Source: Planctomycetota bacterium
Lineage (GTDB): Bacteria; Planctomycetota; Planctomycetia; Planctomycetales; Planctomycetaceae
NCBI GenBank assembly: GCA_022600195.1
Contig: JAHZKX010000049.1
Location: 1-64,000, forward strand
Length of the DNA: 64,000 bases
Reading direction: 5' to 3'
Numbering within the stretch: the stretch's first letter is position 1; each line of letters begins with the position of its first letter. A program made the translations under genes and the position numbers. The notes beneath the pieces are model-generated. The model searched no databases. It had not been told where the DNA came from and was given only the letters and a program-made list of their open reading frames with translations. Of the stretch, positions 47,735-57,868 are shown piece by piece.

Positions 47735-49996
47735 TTAGAGGAAGGACAGCAGCGACAACTGTAGTGCCTGAGATGTGACTTGCAGATTGGCCTCAAAGGC
47801 AGTCTGGCGCTGTGTCATCTCGACAATCACCTCAGTCAGATCGGTGTCAAATTCCTGTGAAATTGACTCTCTGAGTTTGACTTCCTGATCTTTCAGACGA
47901 TTATCAGCTTCTTCGAGTACTTTCAGGCGGCTGCCAATTTCGCCGCGAACCTGATTCATCCGGCCGATCTCTGCATCGAGCAAGACTCCAACCCGTTCCA
48001 GATCCCGATCATCGCCATTTCTCAAAGCCGTTTCCAGGCGAGTCAACAAGCTGATCACGCCCGTTGATTCTTTGGGATTTGGTTCTTTCCCCACTAAACC
48101 AACAAGAGAGTCATTTCCGGTTTCTACACCGGCAATCCCCAGAGCAAATGCAATTTCGATCTCAGGAATTTCCAAAGGCCCAGTTCCCGAAGCATCAAAA
48201 ATCGTAATCCCGTTTCCTGTCGCATTGAGTGTCGCCTGTAGTTTAATGGGAACAAAATTTCCCTGTAAGGGAATCGTATTGTTCGTTCCCGGCTCAGTGA
48301 CTGCCAACCCCAGTGCATCAGAAACAGCATTACTGGCGATGCTCAATGGACCCGCGCCGGAATTATCAGTAATCTGAATTGCGTTCGTGGTCGGATCGAT
48401 ACTCGCAACCAGATTTCCAGGATCAATGGCATTGATAGAATCGAGAGCATCCTGCACAGTGACATCACCGGCTAGACTGACATTCACAACAGATGTATCT
48501 CTGCGGGTAATATCCAGCGTAGCCGCCCCTACGGGAACACCCTGACCCAGATTCAAGTCTGCAAGAAGCGTGGTTCCGTCGAACGTTTCAAAATCATTGA
48601 TTTTGTCGATCACATCCTGCACGGTGGCTGAACCGCTCAAATCGAGATTGATGGTTGAAGCATCACGGCGGATGATTTGTAACTGATTTGAAGAATCGAC
48701 ATCAACACCACGCCCGTAGTTCAATTCGGAAAGAGGCGTACTTCCTGAAAAGGTGCCAATCCCAAGTCCGGCTGCATTCGTCCCACCATTGTTCTCTCCA
48801 ATTGAGAAATCGGCACCGCTGATACGACTGGAAACCGCCAACCCATTCTGGTTCTTGTTAATACCGAAATTTAAATCGGGATCAAGCGTGCGTATCAGGT
48901 TGAACACATCTTCAATGGTATTGGCTGTCGAAAGGTCGATGGTTTCTGTTTTTCCACCGTTATTAATTGTCAATCCGGTACCGGTTGTCGAACCGATGCC
49001 TGCTCCACCATTCAGAGAAGCGATTGTGGTTTGCAGGGTAATACCAGGGTCGATATCCAACCCGTTTATTTGAGCCGCAGCAGCACTGGCAATTCCCAGG
49101 TCGGATGCAGAGGTTGAACCCGGCAAATTGGAAACCGCGACAGTACCCGCTGAGGGTGTTAATCGCAGACCATTTAGACTTGCAGGGTCAATATCCACCG
49201 TCAAAGTCAAAGGACCTGCCGCGAATGCATTTTCCAGAACGGTTTTGAGATCCTGAATCGTTTCCGCGCCAGACAGATCCACTGTTTGAGATTGAGGAAC
49301 TCCATTATCCAGAGTGATCGAAATAGATCCCAGATTCAAACCGCGACCACTATTCAAATCTGAAACTTTGGATTGCAGAGTCAGTGCCGGATTGATGTCG
49401 CTCCCGAACTCAGGTGTGATGGCTGAAAAAGCCTCTATTCCATTAAAATTATTCGGCAGTAATGTTTGCGCATCGATATAGGATTGAATCTGATGAATAT
49501 CACCACGATAGGCAACCTGCCCGTCAGAGCGTTCCTCAAATGGAGCGTTATCTGTGTAACTGCCGGAAAATAGATACTGCCCGCGAAACTTAGTATTGCC
49601 TGCGTTCACAACCTGGGTTCTCAGAGAAGCCACTTCATTAGCCAAAGCCAGTCGCTCAGCACCGGTCACTGTATCACCGATGCCAGTCAGTGAAAGAGAT
49701 TTTGCCTGATTTAAAGCTTCACCTACATTGCCTAAAGCCGACTCACTTGTAGCCAACAAACTGAAACCAGTGCCGATATTTGTCTGGTAATGTTGCTGAC
49801 GTTCTAATGAACTCTGCAAAACAATCGTGCGCAGTGCCGCTCCAGGAGACTCGCTGGCAATGTTAAATTTCTGACCTGTTGCAACCTGCTGCTGAAGTTT
49901 CACTAACTGGCGAGCATTCTCATTCAGAGAAACCTTCAACCGCTCAGAGAGCATAGTAGAAGGCAGGCGGCCTGGTAATAGGGGACCAATACTCAT
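47735..49996 (-). CDS. flgL: Flagellar hook-filament junction protein FlgL (HAP3), enlarged
   Basis: Connects hook to flagellin filament. The N-terminal (1-150) and C-terminal (about 655-753) regions form the coiled-coil D0/D1 core, with the flagellin-like LVKLQQQVATGQKFNIASESPGAAL. The 753-residue protein is more than twice the usual ~310. The extra middle part carries at least four repeats starting with S/D-LN-x-G-x-G near residues 213, 327, 423 and 480. Each is followed by a DLSGA-x-T-QD-like segment, corresponding to flagellin hook-IN-type motifs. It is the last gene of the flagellar operon, 86 bp after flgK. Confidence 0.88.
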   Translation of the reverse strand: MSIGPLLPGRLPSTMLSERLKVSLNENARQLVKLQQQVATGQKFNIASESPGAALRTIVLQSSLERQQHYQTNIGTGFSLLATSESALGNVGEALNQAKSLSLTGIGDTVTGAERLALANEVASLRTQVVNAGNTKFRGQYLFSGSYTDNAPFEERSDGQVAYRGDIHQIQSYIDAQTLLPNNFNGIEAFSAITPEFGSDINPALTLQSKVSDLNSGRGLNLGSISITLDNGVPQSQTVDLSGAETIQDLKTVLENAFAAGPLTLTVDIDPASLNGLRLTPSAGTVAVSNLPGSTSASDLGIASAAAAQINGLDIDPGITLQTTIASLNGGAGIGSTTGTGLTINNGGKTETIDLSTANTIEDVFNLIRTLDPDLNFGINKNQNGLAVSSRISGADFSIGENNGGTNAAGLGIGTFSGSTPLSELNYGRGVDVDSSNQLQIIRRDASTINLDLSGSATVQDVIDKINDFETFDGTTLLADLNLGQGVPVGAATLDITRRDTSVVNVSLAGDVTVQDALDSINAIDPGNLVASIDPTTNAIQITDNSGAGPLSIASNAVSDALGLAVTEPGTNNTIPLQGNFVPIKLQATLNATGNGITIFDASGTGPLEIPEIEIAFALGIAGVETGNDSLVGLVGKEPNPKESTGVISLLTRLETALRNGDDRDLERVGVLLDAEIGRMNQVRGEIGSRLKVLEEADNRLKDQEVKLRESISQEFDTDLTEVIVEMTQRQTAFEANLQVTSQALQLSLLSFL

Positions 49997-50082
49997 TGTG
50001 CATTACACCAAAAGGAAAAGAAAACAGAATTAGACAATGGAACCAAGCTCAACAACAGGGAACCAATCTCAACAATGTCATT

Positions 50083-51783
50083 TCAAATATTCAGTAGAAT
50101 CGTAAATAATTCATCTATCGTACTCACCAGTCGCGCAGCGGCCTGATACGCTCTCTGATAGGTTAATACATTGATCGTTTCTTCATCGATGCTGACTCCG
50201 GAAAACTGCTCCCGCTGACCCAACAGTGACTCTCTGAAAGCCAGAGCCCCCTCAGAAAGTGCTTCCTCGGATGCAGAAGCCTGTGCGACATTGGAGATCA
50301 CTTTTTCATAAAAGCTATCCAGAGTGATATTTCCCAAACTCTCAATGGGATTATCAGCAAATGCAGCCATCAACACAGCATTGCTGCCATCGGAAGGGCC
50401 TCCTCCCTGACCGGTTGCCAGAAATTGTTGATTCTGCTTGACTACGGAATTGATCTGGATGTCGTTCGAGTCGTTACCTGTGAATAATGTATTAATGCCA
50501 ATCGTCGCCAGCGTATTACTGGTATCGTTTGCAAATTGAAATTCGTAATCAGAGCTGGCGCTAATGGTAATCAAGCCATCAGTTGAGACGGAGGAACTTA
50601 AATTTGCAACACCTCCAATGTCCGCTGATAAACTGTTTAATGTCGTATCTACACCAATACTGTCCAGGTCGACATTAATGGTCGTCGTATTTGTCTGCCC
50701 AGTCGTTTTGTTGGTTACCTTGATTTGAAAACTGCCATGCCGGGGCTGAAATGCAAGGCCCGTCTGTGAGGAATTTAAACTGACCGTCGGATCAAGCACA
50801 TTCGATGCTGATGTCAGTTGGTCGAAACCAGCCGTCCCCTGACCCGATGCATGAATCTTATTAAACTCGAAAATCAAATTGGAAGTGTAGGAATCGAGCT
50901 GATCAACAAAGCTACCCAGAATATCATCCCGACCCTCAATAATCCCCTTCAGTTCGCCTCCCGTACGTGAGATATTGCTGTTCGTCTGACTGAGCAGCAC
51001 ATCGTGTACTACCACGCCTCGATCTGTGTCGGTTTTTAAGGTCAGTTTTTGTGAGGTCCCCGCCAGAACCAGATAATCTGAGCCGGTAAAAACATCGATG
51101 GCACCATCATTTCGTTCCCGGTAGCGAATGGGAACCAGTTCTGAAAGTCGATTCAATGCGGTGTAACGCTGATTTCTGAGCGCTCCGGCATCACTTTGCA
51201 GTAAACCGGATGCTTCCAGTTTGGAAATCTTGGGGTTCAGATCAACGATCGTATCGATCAGTTCATTGGCTTCTGTAACCAGATTCTCAACATTAATCGA
51301 TTGCGTATCTCTCAGTTCATTGATTCGTAATCGTAATGACCTGATTTCCGCAGCAAACTTCTCAGCTTCAGTGACGACAAACTCGCGATCGGGAATCGAA
51401 CTGGGTTGAGTCACGACATTATTGAGCGTGGATAAAAAATCATTCAGTCCTGACGAAAGGTCACCCTCTGATAATTCCCGTATCTCACTTTCCAGTTGTT
51501 TGTAAATCAGATTCCGCTCTGAGATTGTGGAGGATTCTGTATTAGCCGAATGGATACGCGTTTCCAGAAACAGATCAATCTGCTGCTGAATGCCGGAAAT
51601 TTCAACACCCGTTCCCAGAACGAGTGCCCCCTGGCGATACGGGTCTGATGGATTAAGCACCATTTCTTCGCGGATATATCCGGGAGTTCCCGCGTTAGAA
51701 ATATTCTGGCCGGCTACCTGGATTCCGGTCCCGAAGATCTCAAGCGACTGCTTGGCCATTGATAGTGATGCATTAAGTCCCAT
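50083..51783 (-). CDS. flgK: Flagellar hook-associated protein FlgK (HAP1)
   Basis: First junction protein between hook and filament, 566 residues, normal length. The N-terminal rod/hook motif appears as MAKQSLEIFGTGIQVAGQNI followed by SNAGTPGYIRE. The C-terminus has the matching SIDEETINVLTYQRAYQAAA and a helical end. The middle is beta-rich with several TT and SS runs. It is encoded between the FlgN-like chaperone and flgL; FlgN normally protects FlgK and FlgL before export, so the broken flgN next to it matters. Confidence 0.92.
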   Translation of the reverse strand: MGLNASLSMAKQSLEIFGTGIQVAGQNISNAGTPGYIREEMVLNPSDPYRQGALVLGTGVEISGIQQQIDLFLETRIHSANTESSTISERNLIYKQLESEIRELSEGDLSSGLNDFLSTLNNVVTQPSSIPDREFVVTEAEKFAAEIRSLRLRINELRDTQSINVENLVTEANELIDTIVDLNPKISKLEASGLLQSDAGALRNQRYTALNRLSELVPIRYRERNDGAIDVFTGSDYLVLAGTSQKLTLKTDTDRGVVVHDVLLSQTNSNISRTGGELKGIIEGRDDILGSFVDQLDSYTSNLIFEFNKIHASGQGTAGFDQLTSASNVLDPTVSLNSSQTGLAFQPRHGSFQIKVTNKTTGQTNTTTINVDLDSIGVDTTLNSLSADIGGVANLSSSVSTDGLITISASSDYEFQFANDTSNTLATIGINTLFTGNDSNDIQINSVVKQNQQFLATGQGGGPSDGSNAVLMAAFADNPIESLGNITLDSFYEKVISNVAQASASEEALSEGALAFRESLLGQREQFSGVSIDEETINVLTYQRAYQAAARLVSTIDELFTILLNI

Positions 51784-51854
51784 GACAGCATTTCCGTAAC
51801 GACAGACGCGCGATTAACAATTGGAATTGCATTTCTTTTTACCGGGAAAAAGAA

Positions 51855-52229
51855 TTACGCCGATGCGTCAAATATCGCTCCCCCTGTGTTACTTTCATTT
51901 TGACCGCGTGAATAAGTCGGAACTTTTTGCCCTGCATTCGCAATCAGTTCCAGAATTTGCGAGTAATGTTGATAGGACCGTTGCGAAACAATCCACTGCA
52001 CCCAGCTTTCGTGTCTTAATTTTTTGGATCGCTGTTCTGCATCATCGATACGCTGAAAGACTAAGTCTGCTTCAGCAACATCCAACCCGGAAAGTAAATC
52101 CTTCATCGTCTGGGAAGGTAATCCGTGCTGTTCTGCTTTCTGAAGCAACTGTTGTCGGGACAGCAACACAAATTGAAGCTCTCGAGTCAGTTCTTCTTCA
52201 ATAACTCCAAACTGCTCGAAGCGGGCCAC
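51855..52229 (-). CDS. flgN: FlgN-like chaperone, C-terminal part after an in-frame TAG
   Basis: A 124-residue helical protein starting from GTG at 52229. Helices such as EELTRELQFVLLSRQQLLQKA fit FlgN, the export chaperone for FlgK and FlgL, and its location before flgK-flgL is the usual one. The same frame continues upstream beyond the GTG through ten more sense codons to an amber codon at 52262-52260. Beyond this it remains open to an ATG with a strong ribosome-binding site at 52376. The intact protein would be ~172 residues. This segment may be made by restart (weak AGCAGG before the GTG), by readthrough, or not at all. Confidence 0.65.
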   Translation of the reverse strand: MARFEQFGVIEEELTRELQFVLLSRQQLLQKAEQHGLPSQTMKDLLSGLDVAEADLVFQRIDDAEQRSKKLRHESWVQWIVSQRSYQHYSQILELIANAGQKVPTYSRGQNESNTGGAIFDASA

Positions 52230-52259
52230 ATTAACCTGCTTGAGTGCCTTGGATTTTTC

Positions 52260-52376
52260 CTAGTATAGATCGAGCAATTGTTTTTGGATGGGTTCCAAAT
52301 CGTTCAGAATCCCCACCATCTGACTCAGCAATTGCTGTTGAATGCTTTGCGCGGACGCGTTCTGTCCTGCATGCAT
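52260..52376 (-). pseudogene. flgN: FlgN-like chaperone, N-terminal fragment ended by amber codon
   Basis: From ATG at 52376, with AAAGGGGG five bases upstream, the frame encodes 38 residues (MHAGQNASAQSIQQQLLSQM..., ending LLDLY) and then TAG. The next in-frame codons (EKSKALKQVN) join directly to the 124-residue downstream ORF. A single C-to-T change (CAG to TAG) would explain it. The N-terminal fragment alone is one helix and unlikely to function. A sequencing error cannot be excluded. Confidence 0.7.
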
Positions 52377-52515
52377 GGGAGCCCCCTTTCTCCCTGATTA
52401 TAAAATCCACCCTCACGGATGGAGAAAATCGCCTATCGTTATAATCGGCATAATCGGACCCACTCTCGCGTCTGATTTAATCAGAATCTGATTTAGATAC
52501 GTAATACCTTGAAAT

Positions 52516-52890
52516 TTAAGGTGTTACACTCGAAGAGAGTTCCAGAGATTGGGCAGACTTCGCATTGATTTGCCGCGAAAATGCGGAAAACAGCGTATCG
52601 GCAAGTCCGCCTCCTTCACGTGTGGCCAGATCTTCAGAAATTTGCTGATCCAATTGGGACTGAAACATTTCTTCCGCCTGACCACCGTGGAAATAGGCAG
52701 GCTTATTCTGCCCTTCCCGCATCGCTTTGAACATCTGCTTGTAAAACGTTCCAGCGACGAACTTCTGAAATGCTTCTTTCAGTTCAGTGGATTCTTTCCT
52801 GGCCTGATTTAATTGGGAGGGTGCCTTGGCCACATCCGATAAAAGTGATGTGTGATTGATTGAAGGTTGAATTCCAGACAAGGGGGTCAT
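52516..52890 (-). CDS. flgJ: Flagellar rod-binding protein, FlgJ N-terminal type
   Basis: A 124-residue protein corresponding to the rod-binding domain of FlgJ/CheL. The signature is LKEAFQKFVAGTFYKQMFKA, then GGQAEEMFQSQLDQQISED and GGGLADTLFSAF. The muramidase domain found in enterobacterial FlgJ is absent, as in many other phyla, so rod cap and wall digestion must be split between proteins. It lies between flgI and flgN in the operon. Confidence 0.85.
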   Translation of the reverse strand: MTPLSGIQPSINHTSLLSDVAKAPSQLNQARKESTELKEAFQKFVAGTFYKQMFKAMREGQNKPAYFHGGQAEEMFQSQLDQQISEDLATREGGGLADTLFSAFSRQINAKSAQSLELSSSVTP

Positions 52891-52962
52891 GGCTGGTTTC
52901 CCTGAAAAAAGGTTTAAAATATCAAAACTGAAAACTCTGAAACAGTTTGTTGTGAGTTCAAC

Positions 52963-54045
52963 TCAATGCTCATCGTACTCGGCGTGAAGTTTACCCGAAC
53001 GGTGCAATTCACGAATGATACTGATGACATCTTCTGTAGGAACTCGCAATTGATTTAACGCCTCAACTAACTGCTGCAGACGTTGAGTACTCTGTTGTCC
53101 CTGCTGACCATTTATCGGCACAAAGCCTCCTGGTAATCCCCCCTCAGCATTTCCAACACCAATCGTAAGATTCCTGTGCGAGATCACAACCGGACTGATT
53201 TCCACTTCGCCGGTAACAATCACTGTTTGTGATTTTGGATTGACTACAACGCGTGCCTGCTGATGCGGTCGATCGATTCCCACTTCCATCACGGCCGCGA
53301 CAAACTCGACCGGTGATTCCGTATATTGTTTGGGAATTCTAATAAATACTCGTCCCGGTCCCTGTGCTATTGCCAACTGCTGATTACCCGCTTCAAAACT
53401 GAATTCGGAATTAATCACTCGAGCCACTTCGCTGGCTGTATGAAAACCGGTATGCTGTTTGTCGACGAGCAGAGTAATCGAACGGGTTTTACGGTCAATA
53501 AAAGGAAGCTCGAAATTCCGCTCCATCACCAGTCCATTAATGATTTTTCCGGATGCCTGTGAGGTTTCATCTTCCAGAATGATGGCTCCGGAACAGAGAC
53601 CCGCTCCCACGCCATTTCCAATTCCCGGAGTTGCCACTGGAGCGATCAGGAGTCGACCCCCGCGTAAACTTTTGGCACCCAGCATGGAACTGACAAAACA
53701 ATCCAGCTTTTGCCCTTTGCGAATTCCACTGGCGGGAATTGTAGCTTCAATCATGACAAGAGCCACATTATTGGCACCAGACAGATCTTTTAAATCAACA
53801 ATCGGATTGTTCAAATGTCTGAGCGCTGCTGCCAGACTGCGAATGGTTGCCAGATTTTTGCTTCCATCACCCGTGCCATCCAAACCGACAATCAGGCCCA
53901 TGCCGGTCAGTTTAATTTCTTTCATGCCGTAAACTGTGCAGATATTTTCGACACGTGTACGCGCCCATAAGTCAGTCGCAGAATTCTGCAGGATGACAAT
54001 GGATGCAATCAGAAGCCAAACAAGTTTTTTTGACCGGGATCTCAT
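52963..54045 (-). CDS. flgI: Flagellar P-ring protein FlgI
   Basis: Forms the P-ring around the rod in the periplasm. The 360-residue length is normal. The signal peptide covers residues ~1-28. Characteristic segments are LTGMGLIVGLDGTGDGSKN, GLCSGAIILEDETSQASGK, VDKQHTGFHTASEVARVIN and the C-terminal LNQLRVPTEDVISIIRELHR. It is encoded directly after flgH and is intact. P-ring presence implies peptidoglycan-associated flagella, relevant to the debate on planctomycete cell walls. Confidence 0.95.
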   Translation of the reverse strand: MRSRSKKLVWLLIASIVILQNSATDLWARTRVENICTVYGMKEIKLTGMGLIVGLDGTGDGSKNLATIRSLAAALRHLNNPIVDLKDLSGANNVALVMIEATIPASGIRKGQKLDCFVSSMLGAKSLRGGRLLIAPVATPGIGNGVGAGLCSGAIILEDETSQASGKIINGLVMERNFELPFIDRKTRSITLLVDKQHTGFHTASEVARVINSEFSFEAGNQQLAIAQGPGRVFIRIPKQYTESPVEFVAAVMEVGIDRPHQQARVVVNPKSQTVIVTGEVEISPVVISHRNLTIGVGNAEGGLPGGFVPINGQQGQQSTQRLQQLVEALNQLRVPTEDVISIIRELHRSGKLHAEYDEH

Positions 54046-54083
54046 AATATTTTCTCGTGGCTGATCAACAGCAGAACATGGAA

Positions 54084-54734
54084 TTAAAAGGGAAAGATCA
54101 AATCGTACAATATCACTCCCCAGGGTCTTTTCGTGCTTTCATATACTTTACCTCTCTGATGTTTCACAATATCCAGATTGGCAATGTTCTCACTTAAAGC
54201 GCTATTGTCTCGGTTCACATCTTTACTGCGGATTTCACCCGTCAATCGATACTCCCAGACATCGCGATTCGTTCGAATGCTTTTTCGGGCTTCCAGAATC
54301 AAATTTCCATTCGGCCGAATATCCACCACGATCGCGGCAATTCGATATTGGATTCCTTCGCGATCCTCCACCTGACCTGTACTTTGCAACCGTCCTTGAA
54401 GCTGTGCATCTATCTTAGGACTGTTTAAAGCAGCAGGTGCCAGGTTGCCTGCCTCATCAATTCGCAAAAATTCCTTCAGCTCGGCTTTTAATGTCTCGGA
54501 CCGATTCCGATTGTAACGCGAATCAATAGTCACACTGGACTTTTCATCAACCAAAATTGAAATGATATCGTGCACCTTCACAACAATCGGCTCCGGCGCC
54601 GGAACATAGATCAGAGAATAATCCTTGACTAATGGCGGCTTCGGAGAATCCAGGTAAATATCACCCTGACCAAAAGTATTTGCCAGGGATGATGTTAACT
54701 GGAGTGGCTCTGCTGAATAACCAAATTCATCCAT
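54084..54734 (-). CDS. flgH: Flagellar L-ring protein FlgH, main body lacking a signal peptide
   Basis: A 216-residue reading frame covering the FlgH body: IISILVDEKSSVTIDSRYNRNR, LQGRLQSTGQVEDREGI, RNDVWEY-like core with LTGEIRSKDVNRDNSALSENIA, and the end GVILYDLIFPF. FlgH must be exported to the outer membrane, yet this frame has no signal peptide. The signal peptide is in the preceding ORF (54695-55030) in the -1-related frame. This frame is open upstream to at least an A8 run at 54782-54789, so a -1 shift there would join the two. The ATG at 54734 may therefore not be the true start. Confidence 0.8.
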   Translation of the reverse strand: MDEFGYSAEPLQLTSSLANTFGQGDIYLDSPKPPLVKDYSLIYVPAPEPIVVKVHDIISILVDEKSSVTIDSRYNRNRSETLKAELKEFLRIDEAGNLAPAALNSPKIDAQLQGRLQSTGQVEDREGIQYRIAAIVVDIRPNGNLILEARKSIRTNRDVWEYRLTGEIRSKDVNRDNSALSENIANLDIVKHQRGKVYESTKRPWGVILYDLIFPF

Positions 54735-55030
54735 GTTGGAAGCAATTTTTTCAGGAGACTTTGATCGCTTGCTTTGATTTCTTTTTTTTCTTTCACATTA
54801 TCAGCGTCGGAAGTACCCTGGGATGATCGGATTGTCTTGGTCGGATTTGCTAACGCTGTACCTGGCACGACTGGAGCTTGTGCCTGAACAACCGAAGAAC
54901 AAAACAATACGATACATCCCAGGGAAATCGCCTCCCGTAGTACTGCTAGCACACAATGGTGCTGGCAGATTCGCTCACTGTTTCTAAGAACCCCAATGGC
55001 AGTTCGCCACGTTCTGATTTCATTTTTCAT
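54695..55030 (-). CDS. flgH: Probable N-terminal part of FlgH (signal peptide), out of frame with the body
   Basis: A 111-residue ORF coupled to flgA by a TAATG overlap, exactly where flgH should begin. It has a long basic n-region. A hydrophobic core follows (LGCIVLFCSSVV), with a cleavage-like AQA near residue 52, then a polar segment. After a GAAAAAAAAG run the frame goes on for ~30 residues and stops at 54695, overlapping the FlgH body by 40 bases. Joining the frames at the run gives one protein of about 315 residues. It could be a homopolymer sequencing error, a true frameshift mutation, or programmed slippage. Confidence 0.6.
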   Translation of the reverse strand: MKNEIRTWRTAIGVLRNSERICQHHCVLAVLREAISLGCIVLFCSSVVQAQAPVVPGTALANPTKTIRSSQGTSDADNVKEKKEIKASDQSLLKKLLPTWMNLVIQQSHSS

Positions 55031-56175
55031 TATCGAATTCCCCCACTTCGAATGATCGGCCCAGCCTGATTTCGCCCCACGTCTCTGCGAATAACAGATC
55101 GTTTCGTTCCTGAAGAACCGGAAATAAATTGAATCCCGGAATTACGTTGAATTTCATTAGTGGGACGATAGTTCACTTCAGCCTGGTTATAACCTGTGAT
55201 GGTGGCCGTTAATCGGTCTCGACCTTCCAGCGCGATCAGCGTGATCGGATCACCCATACCACCCGTGCCGCGCGCCCGCATTTCTCTTTTCACCGAAATG
55301 GCGCCTCGTCGTGAAGAAACCGTAACGATCGCACCATCACGAATCAGAGGCACTTTTATCAAATCCTGGCTTCGCACTATGTTCGACTGATGCACCGTAC
55401 GTGTGAGTTCCCTGCCGATCACCAGTCGGGGATCAGAAATACCTGCTTGATTTTGCTCGGGTTTGATCCAGATGAGATCATCCGCTCGAATCACAGTTCC
55501 TTTGTTCAAGGTATATTTTGTAGCCAGGATTTCAGGAATTTTCTGCAGTCGACAGTAAATACGTGCCTGACTGCTTGATCCGCTGGAATCGCTTAATTTT
55601 AAAGCAACTTCCTGCTCTGTCTCTACTGTTCTGGCCAATCCGGGAAAACGAAAAGAGTCTGCTCTACTCTTGAGGACCAACGCAATATCTTCGGGATGAA
55701 TCCGCACAGTGACTGAGTAGTGGCTCTCATCGGAAAAATAACGTTTCACCCATTCAGAAAGGGCCCGTTCTACTTTTTCTTCGGCCGTTTTTACATCGTG
55801 TTGTGTTGCAACAGGAGTTCGTGTCTCACGTTGTTCTGGCTGCTTCAGACTGACGCGAACCTGACTTTTTCCTGTCAGTTCCAGCTGGCTCAAATCGACG
55901 CCCAAAGCCTGCAAGCGACTTCGAATTTGAGAAATCGTGATCAACAATGTGCGCCCCTGAGCGGGTGCTGGTTGTAATGACATCGCTTCCATGCGGGCCA
56001 CCTGATCTGCGTCGGCATTCAAAACATCCGCAACATCTCCCAGTCGCACAACTGGTGAGTCAACGACAGCTGTCGCCTTCAGTCGCAGAATCTCTGCGTG
56101 CAGTACGCCACCACTGCTAAAAAAGCAGATGACCGGCGTTAAGCTCAAAAGCAAATTGATCCAGTAGCGAGACAT
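55030..56175 (-). CDS. flgA: Flagellar P-ring assembly chaperone FlgA
   Basis: A periplasmic chaperone for P-ring formation, 381 residues. A signal peptide covers residues 1-27. The N-terminal domain shows VRLGDVADVLNADADQVARM. Two SAF-type domains follow, with LNKGTVIRADDLIW and IGRELTRTVHQSNIVRSQDL. The C-terminal AGSF-like segment reads GAIVTVSSRRGAISVKREMRA. It is longer than the usual 220-240 residues because of the N-terminal domain. It lies 43 bp after flgG, and its stop overlaps the start of the flgH N-terminal ORF by one base. Confidence 0.9.
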   Translation of the reverse strand: MSRYWINLLLSLTPVICFFSSGGVLHAEILRLKATAVVDSPVVRLGDVADVLNADADQVARMEAMSLQPAPAQGRTLLITISQIRSRLQALGVDLSQLELTGKSQVRVSLKQPEQRETRTPVATQHDVKTAEEKVERALSEWVKRYFSDESHYSVTVRIHPEDIALVLKSRADSFRFPGLARTVETEQEVALKLSDSSGSSSQARIYCRLQKIPEILATKYTLNKGTVIRADDLIWIKPEQNQAGISDPRLVIGRELTRTVHQSNIVRSQDLIKVPLIRDGAIVTVSSRRGAISVKREMRARGTGGMGDPITLIALEGRDRLTATITGYNQAEVNYRPTNEIQRNSGIQFISGSSGTKRSVIRRDVGRNQAGPIIRSGGIR

Positions 56176-56218
56176 AAATACAAACTTTGAAATAATTATT
56201 CTATGTTTTGTTTTCAGA

Positions 56219-57019
56219 TTAGAAACGACGCATATTAGCTACAGTTTGCAAAGCCTGGTCAGCGGCTTGAACCACCTGGCTGTTCAGTTCAAAATTTCTC
56301 TGTGTTTTGATTAGTTCTACTAATTCGCGAACCGGTTCAACATTGGATTGTTCGAGAAACCCCTGACGCAATTGTCCACGGCCTTCTAACCCCGGAACCC
56401 CAACTTGAGCATCACCTGAACCCGTAGTTGGTGCAAACAGATTGTCTCCCTGACGCAATAGACCCTGGTTATTAATAAACCTCGCAATTTGGATTTCGCC
56501 GGCAGTCTGAATCTGATTGGATCCCTGTTGCTGATAACTGACAACACCATCGCCGGAAATCGAAACATTGACTGCATCCTGTGGGATGGAGATATTCGGT
56601 TCAAGCAGATAACCTTTATCTGCAGAGGCCATCACAATGTTGCCATTGGCATTCAGCGAAAAGTTACCGGCACGAGTGTATAAGGTTTGAATTCCATCAT
56701 TTACCTGAAAAAAACCATCGCCTACTATTGCCAGGTCATACGTACCACTTGAGGTTACAAGTGACCCCTGGCTAAAGTCTCCTTCCGTACTTTGGACCCG
56801 CGTTCCCATACCAAGACTGATTCCGGTCGGAGTGATATTACCGGCGTTGTCCTGTACTCCGGGCAATTTGAAGTGTTCATAGAACAGGTCTTCAAAATTG
56901 GCGCGACTTTGCTTGTAGGCCGTCGTCCCCGAGTTAGCCAGATTATTGGCAATCATGTCGAGATTAAAACTGTTGGCGGACATTCCCGTGGCACTGGTAT
57001 AGAGGGCTCTTACTCCCAT
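56219..57019 (-). CDS. flgG: Flagellar distal rod protein FlgG
   Basis: A 266-residue distal rod subunit, the family's standard length. The N-terminal rod motif is LDMIANNLANSGTTAYKQSR, followed by the L-stretch FEDLFYEHFKLPG. The central TYDLAIVGDGFFQVNDG and the C-terminal RELVELIKTQRNFELNSQVV match FlgG. It lies 72 bp after flgF. Intact. Confidence 0.95.
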   Translation of the reverse strand: MGVRALYTSATGMSANSFNLDMIANNLANSGTTAYKQSRANFEDLFYEHFKLPGVQDNAGNITPTGISLGMGTRVQSTEGDFSQGSLVTSSGTYDLAIVGDGFFQVNDGIQTLYTRAGNFSLNANGNIVMASADKGYLLEPNISIPQDAVNVSISGDGVVSYQQQGSNQIQTAGEIQIARFINNQGLLRQGDNLFAPTTGSGDAQVGVPGLEGRGQLRQGFLEQSNVEPVRELVELIKTQRNFELNSQVVQAADQALQTVANMRRF

Positions 57020-57091
57020 GTGTTGTCTCCTTACTCCCTCAATTTCTGTAATCGGTTACAGCAGATTCCATTGATGTTAAAAAGTGTGTCC

Positions 57092-57868
57092 CTAACGACG
57101 AGGCATGCTTTGCAGCAAACGTCCCAAAGAATCGTCCTGTAACTTAATCATATTGATATTGGATTCAAACATTCTGGAAGTCGTCACCAGTTCCATCATT
57201 TCTTCGATGGAATTGGTTCCGGAAGCTTCCAGAGTACCCTGCTTTATATTGACGGTATCATTAACTCCTGTGATGCGCCCTTCAGTTGAATACAGGCCGA
57301 TACCATTTTTTACTAATTCGTCCAGCGAGCTCGGCATCACGACGGCCACCTGAGCGATTGATCCCAGCGACTGCCCGTTCGCATTAAAGGGAGTCAGTAT
57401 GCCATCTGTGGAAAATTCAATCCGAGTCGTTCCGTCAGGAATTTCAATCTCTTTTTCATCGACTGAGAGAACCGGTAAACCTTGATCGGCAGTGACGAGC
57501 AGACCATCAGGATCGATTGAAAATGAGCCATTGCGCGTCAGAAAATAATCTTGTCCACTTCCTACCTGAAAGAAGCCCTGACCTTGTATCGCTAAATCCA
57601 GATCGCCATCTGTTGTAATAAACGAGCCTGGTTCAAAGTCGGTACGAATCGTTTCTAGAGAGATGCCACCGGTGTGATTTTCCAGATCTCCGGGCAGCGG
57701 CGCGTTGAGACCACCTTGCTGCGCATCGAAAGGTGGGTTCATGCGAAAAATAGGAACGTCTCGCTTAAACGACGTCGTATTCGCATTCGCCATATTGTTG
57801 GACAGCACATCAAGCCGCACCGAATTTGCATCGGCTCCTTGTGCTGAGAGGTACATGCCGTAAATCAT
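57092..57868 (-). CDS. flgF: Flagellar proximal rod protein FlgF
   Basis: A 258-residue rod subunit related to FlgG. The N-terminal motif is LDVLSNNMANANTTSFKRDV. The core shows DLAIQGQGFFQVGSGQD and FSIDPDGLLVTADQG. The C-terminus EEMMELVTTSRMFESNINMI is typical. The Ala-Gln-Gly-Ala start (LSAQGADAN) and divergence from FlgG support FlgF. It is the first structural gene of the operon after csrA, with 438 bp between them. Confidence 0.9.
   Translation of the reverse strand: MIYGMYLSAQGADANSVRLDVLSNNMANANTTSFKRDVPIFRMNPPFDAQQGGLNAPLPGDLENHTGGISLETIRTDFEPGSFITTDGDLDLAIQGQGFFQVGSGQDYFLTRNGSFSIDPDGLLVTADQGLPVLSVDEKEIEIPDGTTRIEFSTDGILTPFNANGQSLGSIAQVAVVMPSSLDELVKNGIGLYSTEGRITGVNDTVNIKQGTLEASGTNSIEEMMELVTTSRMFESNINMIKLQDDSLGRLLQSMPRR

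Follow-up and report, generated by a model that had tools for sequence, protein, structure and literature searches.

The flgN-like gene of a Gimesia-like planctomycete carries an in-frame TAG where its same-genus relatives have a sense codon, and comparison of the sequences makes it probable that this is a recent nonsense lesion, a sign that motility is in the first stages of loss or differs between strains. The most likely account is that a gene for swimming is beginning to be lost in the ordinary manner, not that the code is read in a novel fashion, and the TAG leaves views of the genetic code unchanged. The assembly comprises 6.58 Mb in 84 contigs; the window, that is, the whole stretch of DNA analysed, is the first 64 kb (64,000 nucleotides) of contig C75, and the features discussed below are collected in Table 1.

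Table 1. Features of the flagellar gene run, in window coordinates
Feature	Position	Strand	Remark
flgN-like frame, codons 1-173 and TAA	51855..52376	minus	interrupted at codon 39
In-frame TAG	52260..52262	minus	codon 39 of the flgN-like frame; Gln/Glu codon in 14/14 full-length congener copies
Shine-Dalgarno block GGGAGAAAGGGGG	52382..52394	minus	precedes ATG 52376; in 14/14 full-length congener copies
GTG, first possible in-frame restart	52227..52229	minus	codon 50, start of model helix 2
flgL-like gene, flagellin N and C domains	47735..49996	minus	no break seen
flgK	50083..51783	minus	no break seen
flgJ-like gene, rod-binding domain	52516..52890	minus	no break seen
flgI	52963..54045	minus	no break seen
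flgH 3' part, Pfam FlgH domain	54084..54734	minus	-1 frame
flgH 5' part, signal-peptide-like	54695..55030	minus	frame 0, stop at codon 112
A8 tract	54782..54789	minus	junction of two flgH alignments with relatives

The interrupted frame and its congeners

Translation of the minus strand from 52376 to 51855 gives 174 codons that include a single internal stop and end in a TAA at 51857-51855, which bears out the initial annotation of a single frame running from ATG 52376 to 51855 with the TAG as its sole break; the length, put there at about 172 codons, is 173 when the TAG is counted and the TAA left out. The strong ribosome-binding site that had been claimed for the ATG corresponds to a Shine-Dalgarno block retained at all 14 full-length congener loci, and its duplex energy (computed, like the other such energy given here, with an anti-Shine-Dalgarno core) is -11.0 kcal/mol, a value reached by about 0.3% of 2000 random 16-mers drawn from the window. 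Ten sense codons do lie, as had been noted, between the TAG and the first possible restart at GTG 52229, where the Shine-Dalgarno match is weaker (-5.0 kcal/mol, within the best tenth of random sites). In a structural model of the read-through protein, helix 1 covers residues 3-46 and helix 2 residues 50-83; a restart at the GTG would give 124 residues comprising helices 2-4, without helix 1.

The protein is FlgN-like by its gene neighbourhood, by the fold that it matches best and by a Pfam match below threshold. The read-through frame matches the FlgN profile PF05130 at E 3.7e-4 and 21.4 bits, under the curated cut-off of 30.5 bits, and the profile matches 23 of the 24 alignment members at E up to 1 (best E 1.9e-11). 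Neither piece of the interrupted frame, searched alone with Pfam, matched FlgN, and the interrupted locus was not among the matches when the whole genome was searched with PF05130. The genes flgJ, flgN, flgK and flgL (domains by Pfam) follow one another on one strand, in the same order as in the relatives G002 and G013, so that in the flagellar operon the locus sits beside flgK and flgL, the expected client genes. By analogy with FlgN chaperones, which bind the C-termini of FlgK and FlgL and assist their export, the flgK product would be a client of FlgN. Tyr155 of the read-through frame is invariant in all 24 aligned members and lies in the C-terminal part that a GTG restart would keep; it is a possible counterpart of the conserved Tyr-122 with which Salmonella FlgN contacts FlhA (PMC8527033). 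A second FlgN/FliT-like gene, unbroken, occupies the minus strand at L001:1456-1908 on contig C66 of the source genome (G000), about 3 kb from fliF; it matches PF05130 at 28.8 bits, just below the cut-off, matches FliT weakly, and adjoins a gene that by eye resembles a sigma54-type regulator. Its candidacy as a newly gained flgN substitute was rejected, as G002 has an orthologue too.

Matches to the downstream flgN piece were obtained in 32 of the 59 genomes searched and in 16 of 17 same-genus genomes, the source genome being counted in both; G010 had no match to either flgN or flgK. Among the 15 other same-genus copies, 14 are full length, and L003 (G006) ends at a contig end before the TAG site; this locus was left out of the count, together with L032 and L033, which repeat L004 and L003. 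Alignment A1 includes 23 of the 31 other-genome loci and omits, besides these three, L015-L017 (protein identical to L014) and L023 and L024 (doubtful starts). In all 14 full-length congener copies the frame is open throughout from the same ATG, over 173 codons (nine copies) or 175 codons (five copies). When they were aligned for a sense codon at the TAG position, as the initial annotation had suggested, 10 had CAG (Gln) and four had GAG (Glu), so a change from a sense to an amber codon in a FlgN-like gene fits the relatives; the four copies with GAG share one protein sequence and therefore count as about one lineage. It had also been considered that the orthologues might naturally begin at the GTG. 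This was rejected, since each of the 14 has the upstream ATG in frame with its Shine-Dalgarno block, and only two have GTG at codon 50.

Age of the stop and the break in flgH

Summed over the comparisons with the 14 congeners, differences at codon positions 1/2/3 number 113/103/272 in codons 1-38 and 407/221/953 from codon 50 onward, and because they concentrate at third positions on both sides of the TAG, the frame is not open by chance. Pairwise dN is well under dS on either side where defined, although the ratio is only rough because dS approaches saturation and several of the values are undefined. On a fixed tree of 13 taxa, the share of the total tree taken by the source-genome branch is 10.8% for FlgN, 11.5% for FlgJ and 13.3% for FlgK; the branch is thus not accelerated relative to FlgJ and FlgK, which argues against a long pseudogene phase. 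Of the columns that do not vary among the other 12 taxa, the source copy differs at 4 of 78 in FlgN, 3 of 58 in FlgJ and 9 of 309 in FlgK (first 475 residues), a rate in FlgN that resembles FlgJ and exceeds FlgK and that is at most a weak sign. Protein-like evolution on both sides together with an unaccelerated branch indicates that the stop is recent or is, at least partly, bypassed. An inactivating change absent from orthologues, one mark of a pseudogene, is present, with a sense codon in all 14 full-length congeners; relaxed selection, another, was not found on the FlgN branch, which excludes an old pseudogene and is compatible with a recent one.

The flg stretch consists of nine genes (47735-57868; the names flgA, flgF and flgG were assigned by eye), and a second gene in it is also broken. 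About 2.5 kb upstream of flgN in the same gene run, flgH is frameshifted at an A8 tract in the source copy and forms one continuous frame in all 14 congener loci examined; its 5' part was assigned to FlgH by tblastn and by-eye similarity, outside Pfam. At the tract the zero frame reads GAA AAA AAA, and slippage is known at sequences of this type. Among a subset of flagellar genes, namely flhA, fliF, the flagellin gene on contig C74, flgL and the FlgN/FliT-like gene on C66, no break was seen. The flgI frames of G002 and G013 start upstream of ATG 54045, near 54123, overlapping the end of flgH, so the start of flgI is uncertain within the region 54045-54123.

With flgH broken in the same gene run, gene decay is more likely than an isolated oddity, and two lesions among otherwise unbroken compared flagellar genes point to a motility that is in early loss or varies between strains. 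Translation initiated at ATG 52376 would release a helix-1 fragment of 38 residues, so that full-length FlgN, the hook-filament-junction chaperone, would be scarce or absent. Going by flgN nulls of Bacillus and Salmonella, FlgK and FlgL would then be exported inefficiently or not at all, and the same would hold for the building of the filament: flgN deletion renders B. subtilis non-motile (PMC4054197), and about 35% of cells of a Salmonella flgN deletion have a single filament (PMC8527033). A flgH frameshift, affecting the L-ring, beside the flgN stop would make a normal filament unlikely. We infer that FlgN function is lost, that motility is defective and that both lesions are real in cells, the FlgN activity of the interrupted gene itself being presumed from its sequence. 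Either lesion could nevertheless be leaky or an error, and the conservation of the other flagellar genes examined suggests that motility may still be under selection.

Broken genes elsewhere and rival readings

The frequency of broken genes was surveyed with ORFs (120 aa or longer) taken from 580 kb of G002, a single-contig relative, and compared with stretches of five source-genome contigs (C70, C75, C44, C66 and C74, about 633 kb). Orthologues were accepted at 60% identity and 80% coverage, and stops within 10 residues or 8% of either end were ignored, so defined that the survey is blind to genes with large deletions or early stops. In a raw list of stops, many lay in antisense or overextended ORFs; the best non-overlapping matches were kept, and a few leftover stops, close to the ends of alignments or inside small overlapping ORFs, were discounted by eye. 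Four of 267 orthologues were flagged as broken, and after inspection flgN and flgH remain; the flags at C70:48083 and C66:21508-22356 were set aside as overextended starts, with stops upstream of a plausible start. In a reverse control, source ORFs were compared with the DNA of G002; 7 of 230 were flagged, with stops at query residues 14 to 40, and these too are probably overextended starts. Because the flgN TAG at residue 39 falls inside that range, the upstream part of flgN was tested separately. The chance that two random breaks among the 267 would both fall in the nine-gene flg stretch is about 0.001, a post hoc figure. The 441 mechanical ORFs of the same contigs contain 46 A8/T8 runs, and with only two orthologues broken despite these runs the assembly shows little sign of frequent errors; accordingly, neither general genome decay nor an error-rich assembly is supported. 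In L140 (G013), the orthologue of C70:224877-228761, the match covers residues 2-1292 with one internal TGA.

That the whole species reads UAG as Gln, by recoding or as a suppressor strain, deserves almost no credence and is largely contradicted already, even though Gln is the commonest residue at the TAG site among relatives. The genome tRNA search, in which 150 of 355 candidates were scored, gave 62 matches, 60 of them named by ARAGORN and the other two read by eye as Ser and Arg; none of the 62 has a CUA anticodon, at a depth of scoring that an atypical tRNA could escape. TAG ends 67 of 441 mechanical ORFs (at least 120 aa; stretches of C70, C75, C44 and C66), and after inspection flgN holds the sole internal TAG among the 267 orthologues. 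The lack of a CUA anticodon among the tRNA matches and the use of TAG as a terminator argue against recoding, which was rejected on these counts and on the single internal TAG among the orthologues, and general UAG suppression in the source genome appears very unlikely from the same searches. Compact arrays of 11 tRNA genes (L064:6260-7448, contig C34 of G000) and five tRNA genes (L065:2508-3073, contig C36 of G000), both as called by ARAGORN, also contain no CUA anticodon. The C34 array has two further tRNA-like segments by eye, with anticodons CAT and probably TGC, and the tRNAs of both arrays have mostly low scores with RF00005; compact low-scoring arrays resemble those of mobile elements or phages.

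An assembly or base-calling error, with a sense codon in the cell and a normal flgN, is an unlikely explanation. The TAG is one base away from the commonest congener codon and the flgH break sits at an A8 homopolymer, a usual place for indel errors, yet the survey left so few orthologues broken amid so many A8/T8 runs, and both breaks lie within one flg gene run. It is similarly doubtful that leaky expression, through near-cognate readthrough of UAG or restart at GTG 52229, keeps flgN working at a low level. Conservation of both halves without acceleration would suit such leakage, as would the position of the GTG at the start of model helix 2, which preserves the C-terminal part with the invariant tyrosine, and bacterial in-frame stops are reported to be widespread with dN/dS below 1 (PMC7918605). 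However, a recently arisen stop would leave the same conservation, the tRNA matches lack a CUA anticodon, and the restart has the weaker Shine-Dalgarno site, is rare among congeners and would give a product without helix 1. The UAG, perhaps open to near-cognate tRNAs, and the flgH A8 tract, where slippage of ribosome or polymerase might join the two frames, are both of leaky kinds, so a brake on the operon is conceivable; that the two act as a translational brake on the motile stage, giving low and cell-to-cell variable assembly of the L-ring and the junction, is nonetheless highly improbable. A within-species polymorphism, in which a motility-off variant lives alongside motile strains or was acquired during laboratory growth, accounts for the same data as the early-loss explanation, including the lack of long decay and the placement of both lesions in one functional unit, but it is a narrower form of that explanation and has a small chance of being the right one.

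Significance and known systems

If confirmed by reads, the early-loss explanation would mean that a flagellar operon has been observed shortly after its inactivation in Planctomycetaceae, a family in which the described members produce swimming daughter cells (PMC10923784). Confirmation would also caution against inferring strain motility from gene content. Among the matches listed for flgN in Planctomycetes, for non-motile flgN premature stops and for amber readthrough there was no report of this flgN lesion, and no Gimesia work was among those listed for stop codons, readthrough and amber.

One of the closest known systems is the FlgN export chaperone (PF05130), represented by P. aeruginosa PA3352 (PDB 2fup), Salmonella FlgN and B. 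subtilis YvyG; compared with these, the planctomycete copy is interrupted at codon 39, its read-through frame falls under the Pfam cut-off, and its binding to FlgK and FlgL is putative. Bacterial in-frame stops of this kind are described in PMC7918605 as widespread and mostly short-lived, and a TAG/CAG example there resembles flgN in having TAG where relatives have CAG and a frame that evolves like a protein; unlike the stops described there, the flgN TAG occurs in one genome only and has a second lesion in the same gene run. The flagellar decay of Citrobacter rodentium is similar in that premature stops lie beside largely intact flagellar genes (PMC3072379). In C. rodentium, however, the damage includes prophage, IS and deletion events and no flagellin was detected, whereas the planctomycete presents only two small lesions.
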